This document shows positions 5,431 to 29,887 of a DNA stretch of 35,914 bases, piece by piece. The first letter of the stretch is position 1; each line of letters opens with the position of its first letter. The translations under genes were made by a program, and so were the position numbers. The stretch comes from a virus. The stretch covers positions 1 through 35,914 of IMG/VR virus record IMGVR_UViG_3300024432_000038; one strand, written 5' to 3'. The notes below the pieces were generated by a model. It was not told the origin of the DNA. It made no database searches and saw only the letters and a program-made list of their open reading frames with translations.

Positions 5431-5687
5431 GGATAGGAAAAGTTGGCAATAGTTATTACTAGGGTAGGGGGTATAGGTAAGATTTATTTTTCATAAATTT
5501 ATAAGGTTATATTTACCTAATATTTACCTATAGGGTATATAATATAGATAGTAGGATAGGGTAAGGAAAGAGAGAGAGAAAGACCTAGACCTACTAAGAA
5601 GGATAGGACTTTAATAATACTAGGTAAAGCTAGAATAGGGGAAGGAAAGACCCTCCCCTAATATATAGATAGAATAGGAGAAAGTAG

Positions 5688-5891
5688 ATGCCTACTAGTA
5701 AGAAGTTAGCTAAGGCCCTAGAACTAGAGGAGGGAGAGTTAGTTAGTATAGCCTATAGTTCTAGGCTAGAAACCTATCTAGTATTTATAGTAAAGGAAAG
5801 GGAGATAGCCCCTATAGACCCTTCCTTTCTAGAGATAGTTTCTACTAAAGACCTAGGGGAACTAGTAGAGGAGTTACTTAGGATAGGGTAG
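5688..5891 (+). CDS. Small acidic protein of unknown function
   Basis: This 67-aa ORF starts at an ATG with AGGAG 7 nt upstream. The sequence is acidic and Leu/Ile/Val rich: a helical start (SKKLAKALELEEGE), two likely strands (LVSIAYSS and TYLVFIVKER), then a C-terminal helix (LGELVEELLRI). There is no signal peptide, membrane segment or Cys. Codon use is that of the CTAG-rich island (CTA, TTA, AGG, ATA). The mini-pilin gene starts 46 nt downstream on the same strand, so the two may be co-transcribed. I do not recognise a family. Confidence 0.65.
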   Translation: MPTSKKLAKALELEEGELVSIAYSSRLETYLVFIVKEREIAPIDPSFLEIVSTKDLGELVEELLRIG

Positions 5892-5936
5892 GAAGGAAGA
5901 CCTATCCCTAATATATAAGGAAAGGTGGTGAGATAG

Positions 5937-6080
5937 ATGAATAAAGAGAGCGGCCAGGGCCTTATAGAGTACGCTATTATCCTACTCTTAGTAGGAATAG
6001 TAGTAGCTATTCTAGTAAGTATAATCGGGGCGGCAGCCCCAGAACTAGGGGACATCCTCCCCAACTTACTAGGTCTATAA
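5937..6080 (+). CDS. Flp/Tad-type (type IVb) mini-pilin
   Basis: This 47-aa ORF has its ATG preceded by AAGGTGGTGA, a good Shine-Dalgarno. Residues 1-6 are MNKESG, followed by QGLIEY and then about 18 hydrophobic residues (AIILLLVGIVVAILV). This is a class III prepilin signal: cleavage after Gly6 would leave Glu at +5 and Tyr at +6 of the mature protein, the signature of Flp pilins processed by TadV/CpaA-type peptidases. The mature chain would be 41 aa, shorter than usual Flp pilins, with a small PELGDILPNLLGL tail. Flp pilins polymerise into Tad pili outside the cell. I see no other pilus gene here, so it may be a decoy or a modifier of the host Tad machine. It lies in the CTAG-rich island. 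Confidence 0.75.
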   Translation: MNKESGQGLIEYAIILLLVGIVVAILVSIIGAAAPELGDILPNLLGL

Positions 6081-6095
6081 AGGAATAGACCTTAC

Positions 6096-6149
6096 CTAGT
6101 CCTTAACTAAGGTTAAGGACTAGACTAAGAACTAGTCCTAAACTAGTCC
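6096..6149. repeat. CTAGTCC / GGACTAG inverted-repeat array
   Basis: CTAGTCCTTAAC (6096-6107) and GTTAAGGACTAG (6112-6123) form a perfect 12-bp inverted repeat with a 4-nt loop, just after the mini-pilin stop. The GGACTAG arm can also pair with CTAGTCC at 6132-6138, and a further CTAGTCC lies at 6143-6149. Four copies of a 7-mer in 54 bp suggest a protein-binding array or a structured 3' end. There is no T tract. Confidence 0.55.
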
Positions 6150-6262
6150 CCTCTAACCTAGTACCTTAATAATAGAATAGACTAGACCTATAGGAAGGTC
6201 TAGCACCCTAGAACTAGATAGACTATACCCCTATACCCTATCTAACCTATAAGGAGAATAAA

Positions 6263-6616
6263 ATGGCTAAAGATAAGGTGCAGGAACAGAAAGTAATCTA
6301 TCTGGATCTGAAAGCAGTAACCAAGTACGCAGGATTCGCCCACGACATCTATACCCGTCAGCTACTCAGGCAGGGTAAGTTCGATTCCCCTATCCCGCCC
6401 GTCAAAGAGGAGCATAAAGGGTATTGGAAGTGGATGATCGCCCAGGTCAGTGTAGACCACTACCTGCAGTCCCGTAAGGTCAGAACGGGTAAGCGCCGCT
6501 TTATCCTCAAAATGGACCTAGAGGATGCGGTCAGGGCGCGGAAAGCCTTAAGGGCGGCAGGGATAGAGTTTGATCTGGCCCTTTCTTACAAGAAAAAGGC
6601 CAAGGACACCAAGTAA
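6263..6616 (+). CDS. Basic protein, possible DNA-binding, unknown family
   Basis: This 117-aa protein starts at an ATG with AAGGAG 7 nt upstream. It is lysine and arginine rich. A central WKWMIAQVSVDHYLQ segment is followed by SRKVRTGKRRF, and the C-terminus is a basic tail (SYKKKAKDTK). The N-terminal YLDLKAVTKYAG and HDIYTRQLLRQGKF pieces could form a winged-helix-like recognition unit of the 'helix-QLLRQGK-wing' type, but no family is certain. Codon use is ordinary, unlike the island just upstream, so it marks the right border of that island. It is followed by a strong intrinsic terminator, so it is transcribed separately from the early operons. Confidence 0.7.
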   Translation: MAKDKVQEQKVIYLDLKAVTKYAGFAHDIYTRQLLRQGKFDSPIPPVKEEHKGYWKWMIAQVSVDHYLQSRKVRTGKRRFILKMDLEDAVRARKALRAAGIEFDLALSYKKKAKDTK

Positions 6617-6643
6617 CCAACTAGTATAGGGGTATAGTTTATA

Positions 6644-6675
6644 GGAGCCACCCACCAGGGTGGCTTCTTTTTTTA
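6644..6675 (+). terminator. Rho-independent terminator
   Basis: GAGCCACCC pairs with GGGTGGCTT across an ACCA loop, a nearly perfect 9-10 bp GC-rich stem, immediately followed by a run of T residues (about 6665-6674). It ends the transcript carrying the genes from the CTAG-rich island and 6263-6616. Confidence 0.9.
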
Positions 6676-8843: not shown

Positions 8844-8879
8844 AGACTGGTAGAGCTTATCTCCACCCCATCAGAGATA

Positions 8880-8896
8880 GGCTCCCACCAGGAGCC
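8880..8896 (+). other. Intergenic hairpin
   Basis: GGCTCC (8880-8885) pairs perfectly with GGAGCC (8891-8896) across a CACCA loop, between the genes ending at 8843 and starting at 8934. No T tract follows, so it is more likely an RNA-stability or processing element than a terminator. Confidence 0.4.
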
Positions 8897-8933
8897 AATC
8901 CTGGACATCCTACAGAGAAGGAGGTGATATAAG

Positions 8934-9146
8934 ATGGCGACCAATCAAGAGGACCCCAGAGTGGCATCCCACAGGTTTCCTCTCCTCACAGTTGTAGTAG
9001 AGCACGCTGAAACCTTGGCAGAGGCAGAGGCCACCGCCACCCAATGGATGGAGGAGAATGCACTGGATGGGGATTACGAGCTGGATGACTGGACACAGGA
9101 TACAGTCACCCCAACCACCTGGCACTTCCATTATGTGGTAAAGTAG
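8934..9146 (+). CDS. Small acidic early protein
   Basis: This 70-aa protein has its ATG preceded by AAGGAGGTGATATAAG. The Shine-Dalgarno is essentially a full complement of the 16S 3' end and predicts very strong translation. The product is acidic with a strand (FPLLTVVVEHA), a helix (LAEAEATATQWMEENA) and a second strand (TTWHFHYVVK). This could be a compact alpha/beta fold. It has no known motif. Confidence 0.6.
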   Translation: MATNQEDPRVASHRFPLLTVVVEHAETLAEAEATATQWMEENALDGDYELDDWTQDTVTPTTWHFHYVVK

Positions 9147-9185
9147 GGCTAGCACATAGACATCAGATGAAAGGAGGTGATATAG

Positions 9186-9461
9186 ATGCCAGAACAGCAA
9201 CAGACAGTAGGACCAGGCAAGAGGGTACATCGGATTAGTGTCTTCTGTATTTCAGGCTCTGATACCGTAGACTGTATGATCTACACCACCAAGGTGGATA
9301 GCCTGAAGATTCACTCCACCTATGGGTGCCTTACTGATCAGCAGTACAAGCACCTGGCCAGTGTAGTGAATGGAGCCGCAAGACGTGGTTACGGGGAAGT
9401 CGAAGCCCATGGCGCCATCCCTGGCTTCATATGGCACCAGGCAGCCTATGGACAGGCTTAA
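9186..9461 (+). CDS. Small early protein
   Basis: This 91-aa protein has its ATG preceded by AAAGGAGGTGATATAG, the same strong initiation sequence as at 8934 and 13657. It contains strands (VHRISVFCISGSD, DCMIYTTKVDSLKIH) and a helix (QQYKHLASVVNGAARRG). There are three Cys but no CxxC pair. A predicted soluble alpha/beta protein of unknown function. Confidence 0.6.
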   Translation: MPEQQQTVGPGKRVHRISVFCISGSDTVDCMIYTTKVDSLKIHSTYGCLTDQQYKHLASVVNGAARRGYGEVEAHGAIPGFIWHQAAYGQA

Positions 9462-9541
9462 AACACAGCTTTGGCCTCACCAGATACCCAACGAGGCCAA
9501 GGCCACATAATAATCGCCCTGTGCGATTTGAGGAGGTTCAG

Positions 9542-9826
9542 ATGTATACATACGAGGTGGTGACCACCAAGGTCATCGCAGAAGGGGTGGCCCAGTATGA
9601 GGGAGCCACCATTACGGAAGCAGAGTTTCGTGTCTGCGAACTTGGATCATTTGGCTTCATTACCAATGAGGAAGAGGCCAAGCGTACTATCACAGCACTC
9701 TATGGTGAGGAGGCAGTAGCCAGTACACTCCACTACAGCTTCAAAATCACCAGCAAGTATCCGCCCAAGTGGGACTGCTGGTCCTGCTTTGGAGTAGTGA
9801 TCACCAACTATGAGAAGACAGAGTAG
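9542..9826 (+). CDS. Small early protein
   Basis: This 94-aa protein is read from the ATG at 9542, which has GAGGAGG 5 nt upstream. The longer open frame back to 9431 would overlap the preceding gene and has no ribosome-binding site. It has a beta-rich start (YTYEVVTTKVIAEG), a helix with NEEEAKRTITALYG, and a C-terminal WDCWSCFGVVI that holds a CxxC pair between aromatics. Function unknown. Confidence 0.6.
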   Translation: MYTYEVVTTKVIAEGVAQYEGATITEAEFRVCELGSFGFITNEEEAKRTITALYGEEAVASTLHYSFKITSKYPPKWDCWSCFGVVITNYEKTE

Positions 9827-19797: not shown

Positions 19798-19896
19798 ATG
19801 TTTGCATCAATTAGACCTAAGGATGCGCTTGTTCTTATTGCCCTGCTTGTGACCATTCTATCGTTCATATGTATACTGCTGGGAGAAGGTGGATGA
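19798..19896 (+). CDS. Micro-membrane protein (32 aa)
   Basis: The ATG has GAGGAGG 5 nt upstream. The protein is a short polar start (MFASIRPKD) and a single hydrophobic helix (ALVLIALLVTILSFICILLG). Its stop overlaps the next ATG as ATGA. Function unknown. Confidence 0.6.
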   Translation: MFASIRPKDALVLIALLVTILSFICILLGEGG

Positions 19897-20009
19897 AGTT
19901 TCCGAAGATTGATGCAGACCTGTTCGACTCGATAGTGATGGTAGCATTCCCACTATTGATTATTGCGATTGCTCTGGCTTGCTGCCACATGGTGGAGGCA
20001 TTGAGATGA
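19893..20009 (+). CDS. Micro-membrane protein (38 aa)
   Basis: It is ATGA-coupled to the previous gene. One hydrophobic helix (SIVMVAFPLLIIAIALACC) is followed by HMVEALR. The C-terminal VEALR codons contain GGAGGCATTGAGATGA, and nearly the same 3' end occurs at 20160-20175, suggesting duplication within the cassette. Confidence 0.6.
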   Translation: MKFPKIDADLFDSIVMVAFPLLIIAIALACCHMVEALR

Positions 20010-20022
20010 AGGAGGTAAAACA

Positions 20023-20175
20023 ATGTTTCAAGGGATTGACTATCTAATCACAAGAGGAATGTTAGTGGCCAGCGACACTCGGCGTAGCTTGACATGCGGT
20101 GGGTGTCTGATGCTAGGAGTGGTCTTATTCATCGGCTTGCTCATGGGAGCCTGCGTGATGGAGGCACTGAGATGA
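20023..20175 (+). CDS. Micro-membrane protein (50 aa)
   Basis: The ATG has AAGGAGG 7 nt upstream. A polar, basic N-terminal half with a CGGC pair precedes one hydrophobic helix (LMLGVVLFIGLLMGACV) and the tail MEALR. The tail repeats that of the gene ending at 20009. The stop overlaps the next ATG. Function unknown. Confidence 0.6.
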   Translation: MFQGIDYLITRGMLVASDTRRSLTCGGCLMLGVVLFIGLLMGACVMEALR

Positions 20176-24206: not shown

Positions 24207-24705
24207 GCTATGTCTCATGCCCAACTCATGTATAGGCCATAATGCACGTACGTTCCTGTCCAAGTCACAGTGGGACATGATCAGGAAATGGTGCTACAGA
24301 CGTGCTAACTATCAGTGCGAATATTGTGGCCAATATGGAATACAAGTGGAGTGCCATGAGGAGTGGGACTTCATTATGGTACAGAAACACCGTATACAGA
24401 AACTGGTAGGACTAAAGTGCCTGTGCGGAATCTGCCATGATGTCACACACATGCGCCGTTCCCCGCTGAGGAGTTCGGGTGGTGATATTAAGCCACTCAG
24501 GGAGCATCTATGCGAGGTGAATAAGTGGAGTGAGGGGGTGGCCAGAGAGGTGCTTCGTCTGGCACTCCGTGAGTACCGGAAACGTAGTGAATGGCATTGG
24601 GAGTTGGATCTGATGTGGATGGTCGCTCACTTTGGCTTGCCAAACGTAGTGATCCGCCATCCCCCATATGAAGTGGAGGTGAACTTCGATGTTGAATGTG
24701 AATGA
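24199..24705 (+). CDS. HNH-type nuclease-like protein
   Basis: This 168-aa protein is read from the TTG at 24199, which overlaps the primase stop and has GGGGAGG 7-8 nt upstream; the ATG at 24217 lacks such a site. It shows CEYCGQYG, then VECHEEWDF, RIQKLVGLKC and LCGICHDVTH. This is the pattern of a bacterial HNH family (CxxC, ECHE-W-F, iQkL, CxxCH-x3-H) with zinc and catalytic His. It may nick DNA for replication or attack host or competitor DNA. It overlaps queE by 17 nt, so it belongs to the modification/replication operon. Confidence 0.75.
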   Translation: MIKLCLMPNSCIGHNARTFLSKSQWDMIRKWCYRRANYQCEYCGQYGIQVECHEEWDFIMVQKHRIQKLVGLKCLCGICHDVTHMRRSPLRSSGGDIKPLREHLCEVNKWSEGVAREVLRLALREYRKRSEWHWELDLMWMVAHFGLPNVVIRHPPYEVEVNFDVECE

Positions 24706-25321
24706 GATATTTCAGAGCATACAAGGTGAGGGCGTACATGCTGGTGTTCCTGCCGTATTCCTGAGATTACAGGGATGTAACCTACAGTGCCCATGGTGCG
24801 ACACCAAAGGTGCCCTGGACCCAAAGGGCGGTACTCTTATGCAAGTAGAGGAGGCACTGGGGTGGATCAACATGTATGCTCCAAGTCTGGCAGTGGTTAC
24901 AGGTGGAGAGCCACTACTGCAAATACCAGGATTGGGCATACTAATCAATGGTTTGGACCAGCATAAACATACGTGGGCCCTGGAGACCAATGGGACACTG
25001 GCTCCTCCCCCTGTGCGACTGTTTGATTGGATAACTGTTAGTCCCAAGCCCCCAGATTATCGCATACATCCAGCGTACCATCCCCCTGGTCCACATATTG
25101 ATGAACTCAAGGTCATAGTGACTGGTGATGCTGAATTCCAATACCTGCAAAGCTATGTCTTCTGTTCGGGGAATGTGCTCCTGGAAGACACAATCATTTG
25201 TCTGCAGCCAGTTGATAATGACTTGGACATCGCAAGAAAGATCGTAGAGTTTCTCTGCGCTACTGATGAGCCGAAGTGGAGATTGAGTCTCCAACTACAC
25301 AAAATACTGGAGGTCAAGTAA
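24689..25321 (+). CDS. queE: 7-carboxy-7-deazaguanine synthase
   Basis: This 210-aa radical-SAM enzyme converts 6-carboxytetrahydropterin to 7-carboxy-7-deazaguanine (CDG). The N-terminus NEIFQSIQGEGVHAG, FLRLQGCNLQCPWCDTK with the C-x3-C-x2-C cluster, VVTGGEPLLQ and ALETNGT are diagnostic. A later VSPKPP motif also matches QueE. Length is normal. It is followed 1 nt later by queD and then folE, giving three consecutive steps of preQ0 biosynthesis. Confidence 0.95.
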   Translation: MLNVNEIFQSIQGEGVHAGVPAVFLRLQGCNLQCPWCDTKGALDPKGGTLMQVEEALGWINMYAPSLAVVTGGEPLLQIPGLGILINGLDQHKHTWALETNGTLAPPPVRLFDWITVSPKPPDYRIHPAYHPPGPHIDELKVIVTGDAEFQYLQSYVFCSGNVLLEDTIICLQPVDNDLDIARKIVEFLCATDEPKWRLSLQLHKILEVK

Positions 25322-25322
25322 C

Positions 25323-25682
25323 ATGAAACACTGGACGTTGTACGTACGAAGAAAGTTTCCTGCCTCGCACGCCCTGCCCCACCACACAGGTAAGTGTAAG
25401 CGGATGCATGGACACACCTGGACGGTCGAGGTGGAGATACGCTACACCGGTGAGATACCATCAGAGGCCTGCGGAATGATCGAGGACTTTGGTGTGATCA
25501 AGGGAGTGGTAGATGAATTGGATCATACTACACTCAATGATTACATTTCCAATCCCACGGCAGAGAACATTGCTGAGTACCTGCTTGGACGCATTCGGGA
25601 CCAGATGTACGGTTATCTGGCCGATGCCGGACTTTTGGTCCGAGTGTGGGAATCAGATGACACATATGTGGAGTTGTCGTGA
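25323..25682 (+). CDS. queD: 6-carboxytetrahydropterin synthase
   Basis: This 119-aa enzyme converts dihydroneopterin triphosphate to 6-carboxytetrahydropterin. The zinc/catalytic region is intact: FPASHALPHH, GKCKRMHGHTWTVEVE with the catalytic Cys and two His. Then GMIEDFGVIKGVVDELDHTTLND and NPTAENIAEYLLGRI give the rest of the QueD signature. The C-terminal VRVWESDDTYVELS matches the Glu of the active site. It overlaps folE by 4 nt. Confidence 0.95.
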   Translation: MKHWTLYVRRKFPASHALPHHTGKCKRMHGHTWTVEVEIRYTGEIPSEACGMIEDFGVIKGVVDELDHTTLNDYISNPTAENIAEYLLGRIRDQMYGYLADAGLLVRVWESDDTYVELS

Positions 25683-26251
25683 TGAAGACTGAGGTAGCAG
25701 GAAGAGACTGTCTCGCTATGGTACTGCAGACGTGGCTACATAACATGAGAGTACAGGTGCCCACGGGTCCACACAACAACACCCCCCAGCGTATTGTGGA
25801 TATGTATAATGAGTTCTTCCTTGATCCAAACAAGCAGCCATTCTCCTTCACGATGTTTCCCAATGATGAGGGAATGGAAGACCTTGTGATTATCAAGGAC
25901 ATTACATTCTACAGTATGTGCGAGCATCACCTGATTCCGTTCTTTGGGACAGTACACGTTGGCTACCTGCCCCATGAACGAATTGTGGGCTTGTCCAAGA
26001 TACCCAGGGTAGTGGATTGGTATGCCAGGAGACCACAACTACAGGAGCGGATGACGGCTCAGATTGCCGACTATCTCCGCAAAGAGTTGAGACCCAAGGG
26101 CGTGATAGTAGTAGTGGATGCGATCCACTTATGCGTGTGTATGAGGGGAATTAAGAACATTACAACCAATACGACCACGAGTGCGCTGCGTGGAGTGTTT
26201 CTGGTTAATCCCTCAGCCAGAAACGAATTCTTCAGACTGATTGGGAGGTAA
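25679..26251 (+). CDS. folE: GTP cyclohydrolase I
   Basis: This 190-aa enzyme makes dihydroneopterin triphosphate from GTP, the first step to 7-deazaguanines. It has FYSMCEHHLIPFFGTVHVGYLP with the zinc Cys/His, IVGLSKIPRVVDWYARRPQLQER, and HLCVCMRGI with the second zinc Cys. All are FolE signatures. Length matches the compact bacterial enzymes. The start overlaps queD (ATGATGAAG), and either ATG is possible. Confidence 0.95.
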   Translation: MMKTEVAGRDCLAMVLQTWLHNMRVQVPTGPHNNTPQRIVDMYNEFFLDPNKQPFSFTMFPNDEGMEDLVIIKDITFYSMCEHHLIPFFGTVHVGYLPHERIVGLSKIPRVVDWYARRPQLQERMTAQIADYLRKELRPKGVIVVVDAIHLCVCMRGIKNITTNTTTSALRGVFLVNPSARNEFFRLIGR

Positions 26252-26256
26252 ATGAA

Positions 26257-26595
26257 ATGAGAGTGTTTCCAGAAGAATATGAGGTCATATCCAAGCTAGT
26301 CGAGGAGTGGTACCAGGACATTGCTGCCTTCACCAAAGCCTGCAATACCATATTCAGCGAGAAGGGTGAGAGGTATGACAAGACATCACCCAGTTGGCAT
26401 CGCCATACTTGGCCGTATGGGTATGCCGATGAATTACGAAAGAAAGTGGATAGGATCACTCAGCTGCTTGTTGACTACGATCCAGAGTCATCCGATGCCA
26501 ATTGGGATGCCATCAACGAGGAGTTGGGAGATGTCCTCAACTACGCTCGAATGTTCGCAGCACTCAACATGATGTGGCAGAGGAGGATGGAATGA
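26257..26595 (+). CDS. DUF1599 / nucleotide-modification-associated-like protein
   Basis: This 112-aa all-helical protein has its ATG with GGGAGG 6-7 nt upstream. It shows a 'EKGERYDKTSPSW' turn, DELRKKVDRITQLL and NEELGDVLNYARMFAAL. The order 'YG..w, l..K..Ri..L, .e.l.D..nYa' is that of the DUF1599 (Nmad1-like) family, predicted relatives of MazG/all-alpha NTP pyrophosphatases found beside DNA-modification genes. It lies between folE and the DpdA-like gene and overlaps the latter by 4 nt, supporting a role in modified-nucleotide metabolism. Catalysis is not shown. Confidence 0.65.
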   Translation: MRVFPEEYEVISKLVEEWYQDIAAFTKACNTIFSEKGERYDKTSPSWHRHTWPYGYADELRKKVDRITQLLVDYDPESSDANWDAINEELGDVLNYARMFAALNMMWQRRME

Positions 26596-27386
26596 TTACA
26601 AGATTCATTCCAGTAATGCCTGGTGCGGCCTATACAATCCTGCTTCCGAGGTGGGTAATGCTCCAGGCTCACCAGATTGCGGATGACAAGAATCTCCTCC
26701 ATTGCCTAGCGCACAGGCAGGGGACCATACTCATGCTAGACAATGGAGTCATCGAAACGGGCAGCCCACAGACACATGTGCTCCTGGAAGTGGCCAAGAA
26801 GACCCAGCCGAACTATGTAGTCTGTCCTGACCTACTGCGCGATGGGCCTGGGACCAGGGAACTTCTATGCGTGCATGGGCCTATTCTGGAGAGGCATACA
26901 GATCAGATGATTATTGTCCCACAGAGCGAGTCTGTGAGTGGCTGGTGGGTAGAGGCAGAACACATGATCATGGTGGGCCATGAAGTGCTGAGTAAGCCAT
27001 TCATCCTTGGAGTGCCTGGGATACTGGATGAGATGGAGCCGAATGGCAGGTGTAGGGCACTAATGCACCTACCGGACAATCTTCGCCCACCTATACACCT
27101 ACTGGGTATTCGGACTACTATAACTGAGCTGCTTCTCTGCATACTACATGCTGGGCCCATTCTGAGTGTGGATTCAACACTACCTGTAGCACTGGCACTG
27201 GATGGGCACCTACTGGGCATGTCATCCAACAAGATTACAATGAAGAATGAGGACTGGGAATTGGATGGCGATATATGCTGGATGCTCATACAAAAGAACA
27301 TTGAGCAGATGGGGAGGTATCTACGCCAATGGTCAAGACCCAATCAGTCAACTGCGACAAGTGTCCCTACAGAGACCGTAAGTTAG
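26592..27386 (+). CDS. dpdA: DpdA-like DNA guanine transglycosylase
   Basis: This 264-aa protein is read from the ATG at 26592, which has AGGAGG upstream. The TIM-barrel pattern of phage DpdA (a Tgt paralogue acting on DNA) is visible: ILMLDNGVIE with the general-base Asp near 50, NYVVCPDLL, MIIVPQSES, ILGVPG, PIHLLGIR, and ILSVDSTLP with the nucleophile Asp near 194. DpdA exchanges guanine in DNA for a 7-deazaguanine. The neighbouring folE-queD-queE genes would supply the base. It is shorter than tRNA Tgt and lacks its zinc motif. The residues are from pattern matching, but the gene context is strong. Confidence 0.8.
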   Translation: MITRFIPVMPGAAYTILLPRWVMLQAHQIADDKNLLHCLAHRQGTILMLDNGVIETGSPQTHVLLEVAKKTQPNYVVCPDLLRDGPGTRELLCVHGPILERHTDQMIIVPQSESVSGWWVEAEHMIMVGHEVLSKPFILGVPGILDEMEPNGRCRALMHLPDNLRPPIHLLGIRTTITELLLCILHAGPILSVDSTLPVALALDGHLLGMSSNKITMKNEDWELDGDICWMLIQKNIEQMGRYLRQWSRPNQSTATSVPTETVS

Positions 27387-29887
27387 TACCTGGCGCCGGA
27401 GCACCACCTGGTCAAGCCGTAGTCGTAATGGTGGGTGAGTCCCCTGGCATGACTGAGATGCGAATGGGTGTTCCATTCATTGGCAAGTCGGGACACCTAT
27501 TACGCAGTCTGCTTCGGGGCACTGGCTATGATACCCCGACTACCAGTGATCTACAAAAAGCATTGCGCCAGGGGGATCGGACAATCGTAGACTCTGGTAA
27601 TGTCTACTACACTAATGCCGCCCTGTGCGTTCCTACGGCTGCTGATGCTGATACGTACAAGACGAGCAGCACAAAGAAGGAAGCCTGCGTACTGTGCCGT
27701 GACCGGCTGGTGGCTGAACTTGAGCCGTACCTTCAGAGGGACATCCCTGTCTGTGCCCTGGGTGGTGGTGCCTCACTGGCCCTGGTAGGAAATGAGGAGA
27801 TTACCAAGATCAGAGGGCTGTGGCATTCGGATGATCGTGTATTGACTACCTGGCATCCAGCCTATGTCCTACGCCAGCCTACGCGGGTCAGTGAGTTAAC
27901 ATGGGACTTGCAGAAGCCATTGGCAGGTGGTCCAGCATATAGGGACTTTCCAGAGGTGGATGTTACCATTCTTGAAACAGACCAGCACATGCTACTCTTC
28001 ACTGAGATGCTCTTGGCAATGGTAGAGCGAGGGGACATACTGGACAATACAGTCTCCTTCGACATTGAGTCTGCTAACATCAACTATCGTACAGATCCAA
28101 TCATTTGTCTTCAGTTCTCCTGGGATGTGGATATTGGAGCAGTGGTATCTGAGGACATCATTCACTCTCCCATAACACGGGAGTGTTTACTGCGTCTATT
28201 TGCTCCATGGAGTGGGATCAAGTTTATGGGCCATAATGCGAAGTTCGATGTGAAGTTCTTGTACTACCAGCTGGGTGTCTGGAATGCCCGCTTTGAGTAT
28301 GACTCACTGCTAGGTGACTACATTCTGGATGAGAATCGAATGCATGGCCTGAAGGAGCTACTGGCTGACCGATACAGCCTACCGGACTATGAGCAGGACT
28401 TGGTACAGATATACCTGCGTAGTAAGAATGATGACTACCGTAAAGTACCTCGGCCACAGCTGTACAAGTATGGTGCCCTGGATACGGCCTACACCCTCCG
28501 TCTCTGGAGAGATGTCAGAGCCGAGTTGGAGGAGCGGGGACTGTGGGAACAACCGTTCCTATATCCCATGATGGCCCTACAGCCCATGTGGGCTGAGATG
28601 GAACTTTACGGAATGCAGGTTGATAGGGATCGTATTACCGACTTGTCCAGGCAGCTACGTGACTTCACTTCCCAGGTACAGGCACAACTGGTGGACCTTG
28701 GTGAGGCGAGTGCGGACTTCAATCCCAACTCGTGGATACAGGTTGGGAAGGTGATGTATGACTACTTCCACATGCCACTACAGAAGATTCGGAAGCTCAA
28801 TCCACGATCCACAGCCAAGCCTGTCCGTCAGGCCATAGAGCGCCACTATAGGGAACATGATCAGTTTGATTGTCCCGCAATGGAATGGCTACTATTACTG
28901 GGACAGTGGAGAAGCCTGGAGAAACTACGTAGTTCATATGTGGATAATCTGATACCGTCCATAGATCAGAAGCAGAGGGTCCATCCAGACATTTTGGCCT
29001 ATGGTACAGAGACTGGACGTATATCAGTTCGGAATCCAGCACTGCAAACCATTCCACGAAAGGGTACAGGTAAGGCCCTGGGCAAGGAGTGGGGACGGGA
29101 GATCAAACTATGCTTCAATGTTCCAGATGAATGTAAGATGATTCAGGTAGACTATGGCCAGGCTGAACTGCGTACAGCGGCCTGGATGGCCCAGGATCCA
29201 TTCTTATTGGAATGCTACAGGGAGGGCAAGGACATACATGGTGAGGTGTCCGAGGCATTCTTTCCAGGGTACTACGCCATGAAGCCCGAGGACAGAATGG
29301 CGACTGCCATTGGACCCAAGAGTAAGAGTGATATACGTAAGGAGATCAAAAAGTGCGTATTCGGTAGGATGTACTTGGGCACTGCGTACACTATTGCTGA
29401 GACTTTGAACTGTACCATGGGCCAGGCCAAGGAGTATCTTGCCATCTTGGACTCCAAGTTGGGTGGGCTGGTCAAGTTCGAGAATGCGCAGTGGGAGCTG
29501 ATGCGCACTCAGGGATATGTGGAAACTCTCACCGGACGTAGGAGACGTGTACCACTGATTGTTCGAGAGAACCAGGATGATGCCCGCAAGGCGGCCTGTA
29601 ATGCTCCTGTCCAGGGCATGGCGTCCGATCTGACTATAATGGCCACCTATGAGGCTTGGAAGTGGTTACATGCGGATTCCAAATTCAAGGACGTTCATAT
29701 ACTCATTACAGTCCACGACTCCATCATCCTAGAGGTGCCAGATGGACTAGTTGAGGTGGTAGCATTGAAGACACAGGAGATTATGGAACGGATTGGCGAT
29801 GAGTGGATGCCTGGTATTCCATGGGTGGCAGACATGGAGGTTGGTAATAGTTGGGGGGAATTGGAAGCATGGTCATCGAAGAACTGA
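27329..29887 (+). CDS. Uracil-DNA glycosylase / 3'-5' exonuclease / family A DNA polymerase fusion
   Basis: This 852-aa replicase overlaps the DpdA-like gene by 58 nt. About residues 1-200 form a family-4-like Fe-S uracil-DNA glycosylase: NCDKCPYRDRK, VVVMVGESPGMTEMRMGVPFIG, later ACVLC and TWHPAYVLR. Next is a DEDDy exonuclease: VSFDIES (D245, E247), MGHNAKFD and YKYGALDTAY, apparently intact. The polymerase has motif A IQVDYGQAELR (D608), motif B with R670, K674, F678 and Y682 in RKEIKKCVFGRMY, and motif C TVHDSIILEV (D797; usually HDE, here HDS). It would copy phage DNA; the glycosylase may remove or sense uracil, or read the modified template. Confidence 0.92.
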   Translation: MVKTQSVNCDKCPYRDRKLVPGAGAPPGQAVVVMVGESPGMTEMRMGVPFIGKSGHLLRSLLRGTGYDTPTTSDLQKALRQGDRTIVDSGNVYYTNAALCVPTAADADTYKTSSTKKEACVLCRDRLVAELEPYLQRDIPVCALGGGASLALVGNEEITKIRGLWHSDDRVLTTWHPAYVLRQPTRVSELTWDLQKPLAGGPAYRDFPEVDVTILETDQHMLLFTEMLLAMVERGDILDNTVSFDIESANINYRTDPIICLQFSWDVDIGAVVSEDIIHSPITRECLLRLFAPWSGIKFMGHNAKFDVKFLYYQLGVWNARFEYDSLLGDYILDENRMHGLKELLADRYSLPDYEQDLVQIYLRSKNDDYRKVPRPQLYKYGALDTAYTLRLWRDVRAELEERGLWEQPFLYPMMALQPMWAEMELYGMQVDRDRITDLSRQLRDFTSQVQAQLVDLGEASADFNPNSWIQVGKVMYDYFHMPLQKIRKLNPRSTAKPVRQAIERHYREHDQFDCPAMEWLLLLGQWRSLEKLRSSYVDNLIPSIDQKQRVHPDILAYGTETGRISVRNPALQTIPRKGTGKALGKEWGREIKLCFNVPDECKMIQVDYGQAELRTAAWMAQDPFLLECYREGKDIHGEVSEAFFPGYYAMKPEDRMATAIGPKSKSDIRKEIKKCVFGRMYLGTAYTIAETLNCTMGQAKEYLAILDSKLGGLVKFENAQWELMRTQGYVETLTGRRRRVPLIVRENQDDARKAACNAPVQGMASDLTIMATYEAWKWLHADSKFKDVHILITVHDSIILEVPDGLVEVVALKTQEIMERIGDEWMPGIPWVADMEVGNSWGELEAWSSKN

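Follow-up and report, generated by a model that had tools for sequence, protein, structure and literature searches.

A probable Flp/Tad-type prepilin gene in an uncultured phage and its possible use as a pilus decoy

We found that an uncultured phage carries what is very likely a real gene of an Flp-type prepilin, P0001. The DNA in question (the window, i.e. the whole stretch that was analysed) is a 35,914-base IMG/VR virus record with genes of a phage terminase, a Sak4-like annealing protein, a helicase and a family A DNA polymerase; locations of the features discussed below are collected in Table 1. In our preferred reading, to which we assign a probability of about 0.4, the gene would code for a genuine, selected Flp/Tad prepilin of the Chloroflexota type that, situated at the head of the rightward operon, acts as a decoy.

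Table 1. Coordinates of features of the window, of the deserts in related phages and of Flp-type pilin genes in other phage contigs
Feature	Record	Position	Strand	Remarks
Flp/Tad-type (class III) prepilin gene P0001, 47 aa	window	5937..6080	+	Chloroflexota Flp HMM, AlphaFold2 helices
Leader MNKESG, with predicted cleavage by prepilin peptidase after G6	window	5937..5954	+	sequence, alignment A6
Predicted mature pilin, 41 aa	window	5955..6077	+	Glu+5/Tyr+6, single hydrophobic helix, AAA insertion, divergent C-terminus
Ribosome-binding site AAGGTGGTGA	window	5922..5931	+	5 nt ahead of the pilin ATG
67-aa ORF upstream of the pilin gene, same cluster	window	5688..5891	+	CA/TG-free except start codon
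117-aa gene downstream of the pilin gene	window	6263..6616	+	homologues at the same place in L002 and L003
Perfect 12-bp inverted repeat CTAGTCCTTAAC-TAAG-GTTAAGGACTAG	window	6096..6123	+	hairpin right after the pilin gene, without T-run
Strong intrinsic terminator-like hairpin	window	6643..6668	+	closes the cluster of 67-aa ORF, pilin gene and 117-aa gene
CA/TG-dinucleotide desert, ~770 bp, containing the pilin gene	window	5493..6263	.	CG rare too; TA and CTAG enriched
Desert	G001 (L125-L127, joined coordinates)	~46750-48066		
Desert	G002 (L128-L129)	~8870-9600		
Flp-type pilin gene	L005	2502-2645		
Flp-type pilin gene	L007	9980-10138		
Flp-type pilin gene	L008	2606-2755		
Flp-type pilin gene	L009	2426-2572		
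Flp-type pilin gene	L010	6293-6445		
Flp-type pilin gene	L096	9977-10129		
Flp-type pilin gene	L097	159-317		

The 47-aa gene with a strong ribosome-binding site, claimed in an earlier note on this DNA, was borne out: the ORF starts with ATG, stops with TAA and translates as MNKESGQGLIEYAIILLLVGIVVAILVSIIGAAAPELGDILPNLLGL. Its prepilin junction reads MNKESG-QGLIEYA, with the class III cleavage context between G6 and Q7 as the note had described it, and with the Glu and Tyr claimed for +5 and +6 of the mature chain present as E11 and Y12. A sequence resembling the ribosome-binding site, AAAGGAGGTGAG, precedes the pilin genes of the phage contigs L007, L010 and L097 as well as some Chloroflexota pilin genes. 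When we searched for short ORFs that have a start and fit a loose prepilin pattern (G-x4-E-hydrophobic together with 18 or more uncharged residues in a row), the single match in the window was the P0001 ORF; among dinucleotide shuffles of the whole window a match appeared in 1 of 300.

The note had also seen no other pilus-assembly gene, and neither did we: a family scan of the 53 window proteins gave no Tad or other pilus-assembly family, and prepilin peptidase (Peptidase_A24) was found neither in the window nor in the phage contigs G001, G002, G006 and G008; a pilin gene borne by a phage need not come with such genes. As ORFs are open at both window ends, the absence of Tad genes refers to the window and says nothing on the missing parts of the genome.

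Profile, motif, predicted helix and relatives give good support to the assignment of P0001 to the Flp/Tad-type prepilins. With a profile made from 88 cellular pilins, nearly all from Chloroflexota, P0001 scored 42.2 bits (E-value 1.2e-12 among window ORFs); the second-best window ORF had 9.0 bits, and the 4371 ORFs of related phages did not exceed 11.2 bits. The fear that no Flp profile would match came true in one part: P0001 had no match to Pfam Flp_Fap (PF04964). It did match the Chloroflexota Flp profile, and its close relatives do match PF04964, namely all 23 other members (E ≤ 1) of an alignment of 24 pilins (A6; P0001, nine pilins from viral contigs and fourteen cellular ones). Residues G6, Q7, L9, E11, Y12 and A13 were invariant across this alignment. 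Identity of P0001 to pilins of Anaerolineae and other Chloroflexota was mostly 40–59% over the aligned part. Searches of Pfam, NCBIfam and PHROGs gave nothing usable for P0001 (none above threshold in Pfam and NCBIfam), and a PDB search gave no match; phrog_10597 (E-value 0.011) was discarded as uninformative since it matched 12 of 14 control genomes too.

Shuffling of all residues after GQGLIEY never restored the profile score of P0001 (0 of 2000 shuffles, maximum 36.6 bits), while shuffling of residues 32–47 alone regained it in 274 of 2000 cases. Thus, motif and membrane helix account for the similarity; the C-terminal similarity to Flp pilins is not beyond that of shuffles. The protein is small, with a single hydrophobic helix, a 41-aa mature chain and no globular domain; its AlphaFold2 model is a two-helix rod (helices 5–33 and 35–44, mean pLDDT 81). 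With the Chloroflexota branch of Flp/Fap pilins (PF04964) P0001 shares a short leader ending in G, the mature start QG[LI][IV]EYA, Glu+5 and Tyr+6, a hydrophobic helix of ~20 residues and a mature length of ~40–45 aa. It differs from them by a shorter leader (6 aa), an AAA insertion, an unrelated C-terminus and the missing PF04964 match, as well as by being encoded in a phage, in a window with no other Tad genes. P0001 is a divergent relative of a known family; its carrier and its proposed use are what is new.

The pilin gene is located at the head of a rightward, replication-side operon, where it has its strong ribosome-binding site and where a terminator follows the third gene; the packaging genes to the left of the cluster run in the opposite direction. 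A homologue search with the 67-aa ORF found none. Near the hairpin downstream of the pilin gene a 101-nt stretch folds at a z-score of −3.5, and a scan for sigma-70 promoters at the pilin cluster returned nothing beyond chance.

Two contigs, G001 and G002 (L002 and L003), represent related phages; their terminases are 55% identical to that of the window, and they share with it a common genome plan, 7-deazaguanine genes and the 117-aa gene. The pilin gene is absent from both, the two relatives covered at this place; closer terminase relatives (L106 and L107) end at or just before the pilin place and were left out of the comparison. The gene is thus accessory in this phage lineage. Absence of the motif in homologous phages, a concern of the earlier note, was therefore real for the two covered relatives, whereas other, unrelated phages do carry such a gene (see below).

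The nucleotide composition around the pilin gene is unusual. The count of CA/TG dinucleotides at positions 5501-6000 is 5, the median per 500 bases being 82; the depletion concerns both strands, with z-scores of about −10 per kb in the window and in G001. Within the window desert, TG is present only in the start codon of the 67-aa ORF (at 5689), in the pilin ribosome-binding site (5926 and 5929) and in the pilin ATG (5938), and the next TG belongs to the ATG of the 117-aa gene. Synonymous recoding of P0001 with the phage codon usage gave an expectation of 11.9 TGs versus the one observed (none of 3000 recodings was as low). Since TGs were kept at start codons and at the pilin ribosome-binding site, the pilin gene is very probably genuine.

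Deserts exist at the same place, the start of the early operon upstream of the small terminase gene, in both related phages; the counts go down to 3 in G001 and to ~20 in G002, versus 66–67 per 500 bases. At 47546-48066 of G001 just two CA/TG sites are left, one of them in a start codon; in the deserts of the window and G001 start codons are nearly the sole remaining TGs. CG is depleted in the window desert and not in G001; TA is enriched. Five of the six CAs and all four CGs of the window desert fall within the pilin ORF, which makes it the least adapted piece of the desert; we infer that the pilin gene arrived after the flanking desert had formed and was then purged of TG. The idea of an AT- and CTAG-rich island as recent foreign DNA was rejected, as the same CA/TG depletion is seen at the same place in the two related phages; the pilin gene itself may be a later arrival in the island. 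As to the cause of the desert, one could think of an avoided modification or cleavage context in the DNA that is used first or of a local CpA-to-TpA mutational pressure.

Some other genes of the window deserve mention. Positions 24689-27386 hold 7-deazaguanine genes (QueE-like radical SAM, QueD and FolE), of which QueE, QueD and FolE are also present in G001 and G002. The protein encoded at 26580-27386 looks by eye like a DpdA-type transglycosylase (in Pfam it matched DUF6610 only, E-value 0.0018); a DpdA-like protein is found in G001 too. The phage DNA probably carries a modified guanine, judging by this gene content. We also asked whether such a desert is a general mark of phages with 7-deazaguanine pathways; CAjan and 9g, which have these pathways, show none. 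The family A DNA polymerase (27329-29887) seems, from its N-terminal sequence, to carry a fused uracil-DNA glycosylase domain; PF03167 appeared in the window family scan with E-value 5e-17, the scan not naming the member protein. Two tandem tiny single-pass membrane ORFs of 46 and 50 aa (19869-20009 and 20023-20175), both ending with MEALR or VMEALR, are possibly a duplicated small membrane protein.

Searches of viral contigs gave 13 records with an Flp-type pilin ORF. At least seven other uncultured phage contigs (Table 1) have the pilin gene in a convincing phage context, mostly beside tail genes: tape-measure proteins are encoded in L007, L010 and L096, a tail-fibre protein in L009 and a terminase in L097 and (weakly) in L008, while the tail module of L005 is homologous to those of L007 and of a Bellilinea caldifistulae prophage (L135/L136, ~152294-174572), which has no pilin gene. 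Not included in the count were L006 and L100, whose TadE-like genes indicate that they may be host DNA, as well as L098 and L099. Two genes that sit side by side in L007 and in the Bellilinea prophage are separated in L005 by the pilin gene and a 91-aa ORF, which is the mark of an accessory gene that was inserted. The phage pilins are each roughly as close to some cellular pilin (identity of at most 86% over the aligned part) as to other phage pilins, a pattern that fits several acquisitions. Neither P0001 nor the L009 pilin had a match among cultured phages, and a full-text search of openly licensed papers brought up no account of a Tad pilin encoded by a phage.

Which host could provide a Tad machine? 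With P0001 alone as the query, Flp pilins were matched in 182 of 400 Chloroflexota genomes versus 6 of 296 Actinomycetota genomes (the taxonomic counts were made with P0001 alone, alignment A1 being biased by three typed Flp-like rows). Flp was present in all 10 genomes tested, nine of which were from Chloroflexota, and each of these nine had Peptidase_A24 (eight over the cut-off). A host lacking prepilin peptidase, the objection raised earlier, is therefore not what we see; Flp pilins and prepilin peptidases are both present in the candidate phylum. Matches to the window terminase were about equally rare in Chloroflexota (3 of 400 genomes) and Actinomycetota (2 of 396), the best one being in a Chloroflexota MAG contig (37% identity over 97%). 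The host phylum is likely to be Chloroflexota, mainly on the ground of pilin similarity; for at least the carriers with the L007-type tail module there is a link to Anaerolineae, as this module is present in Bellilinea.

In the Tad pilus of Caulobacter, Glu+5 forms hydrogen bonds with the backbone of +3 and with Tyr+6 of neighbouring pilins, and the pilin C-termini face outward (PMC11067988). The residues conserved in P0001 are thus those needed for co-assembly. Caulobacter crescentus PilA (structure in PMC11067988) resembles P0001 in its Glu+5 and Tyr+6 and in a single helix whose C-terminus would face outward in both; it differs in the lengths of leader and mature chain (14 aa and 45 aa versus 6 aa and 41 aa), and while the Caulobacter pilin binds phage phiCb5 via Lys48, the mature chain of P0001 contains no Lys or Arg.

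We suggest that the 47-aa prepilin would insert into the host inner membrane, would be cut after G6 by the host prepilin peptidase and, as a mature 41-aa helix, would enter the host Tad platform; with neither assembly genes nor a peptidase in the window, host machinery would be needed. Owing to Glu+5 and Tyr+6 the decoy could dock among host pilins, and its divergent, outward-facing C-terminus could then cap, poison or re-coat the Tad filament. The infected cell would lose or change the pili to which pilus-dependent phages adsorb, with superinfection exclusion as the outcome. That P0001 blocks or alters host pili is plausible; we know of no Chloroflexota phage that uses Tad pili as a receptor. 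Pilin genes of the other phages are in tail or late modules and not in an early operon; hence one shared role in early exclusion is not implied.

Phage proteins with a comparable effect are on record. PfsE of phage Pf4, a very small, predicted inner-membrane protein that binds the pilus platform protein PilC (PMC8764522), disables type IV pili and causes superinfection exclusion (PMC8764522; review PMC11436027); phage proteins that bind PilB, among them one of phage D3112, shut pili down (PMC8764522, PMC11436027). What they have in common with our proposal for P0001 is a phage-encoded shutdown of pili that excludes superinfecting phages. However, the targets of PfsE and of the PilB-binding proteins are Pseudomonas type IVa pili, and neither is described as a pilin, whereas P0001 is a proposed pilin mimic for the Tad (type IVc) machine.

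Other readings of the gene have to be weighed. We consider it unlikely that the product is the phage's own small virion, tail-associated or lysis-time membrane protein with a borrowed pilin helix. Such a role would agree with the pilin gene lying inside a tail module or at its end in L005, L007, L009, L010 and L096, with its position between small genes next to the tail-fibre gene in L009 and with its position upstream of terminase and portal genes in L097. Yet, the position is not conserved between phages, the tail modules of L007 and the Bellilinea prophage have no pilin gene at the L005 site, and in the window no recognised lysis or tail-fibre gene lies anywhere near P0001; besides, this role would not need the prepilin-peptidase motif and Tyr+6, both of which are kept. 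We also regard as improbable, if anything a trace more so, an accessory gene of benefit to the host, by which the infected or lysogenic cell would obtain a functional or modified pilus (adhesion, biofilm, change of surface). Here the integrase genes of L007 and its tail-module prophage relative in B. caldifistulae suggest that some carriers may be temperate, and the identity of phage pilins to cellular ones, up to 86% over the aligned part, would suit such a role; still, no integrase or lysogeny family was found among the 53 window proteins scanned, and such hosts usually have several flp copies already, so that an extra one would add little.

One could speculate further that a host flp gene was gained by chance and stays as a non-functional passenger; its absence from the two covered relatives and its poor adaptation to the desert would be in line with this. 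We hold it to be distinctly improbable, given the intact motif, a strong ribosome-binding site kept at the cost of two TGs, the purging of TG via synonymous choice and the independent recurrence in phages. Least of all do we expect that P0001 is not a pilin, i.e. that GQGLIEY arose by chance in a single-pass membrane protein or that the assembly is chimeric. The failure of Pfam and NCBIfam families to match over threshold and the C-terminus being within the shuffle range would agree with this; the profile score, above every motif-preserving shuffle and far above every ORF of related phages, speaks against it, and the desert composition that runs through the gene, and is repeated at this site in both related phages, argues against a chimera.

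To return to the decoy, a broader and more tentative version of it is that phages of Chloroflexota and their neighbours may repeatedly capture a host Flp pilin gene for a decoy that the host processes and that poisons or re-coats Tad pili, so that exclusion would work by pilin mimicry and not by binding to motor or platform. A recurring phage pilin gene would suggest that viruses enter Chloroflexota, a phylum for which few phages are in culture, by way of Tad pili, and P0001 would serve as a 47-aa natural probe of which subunits the Tad machine accepts.
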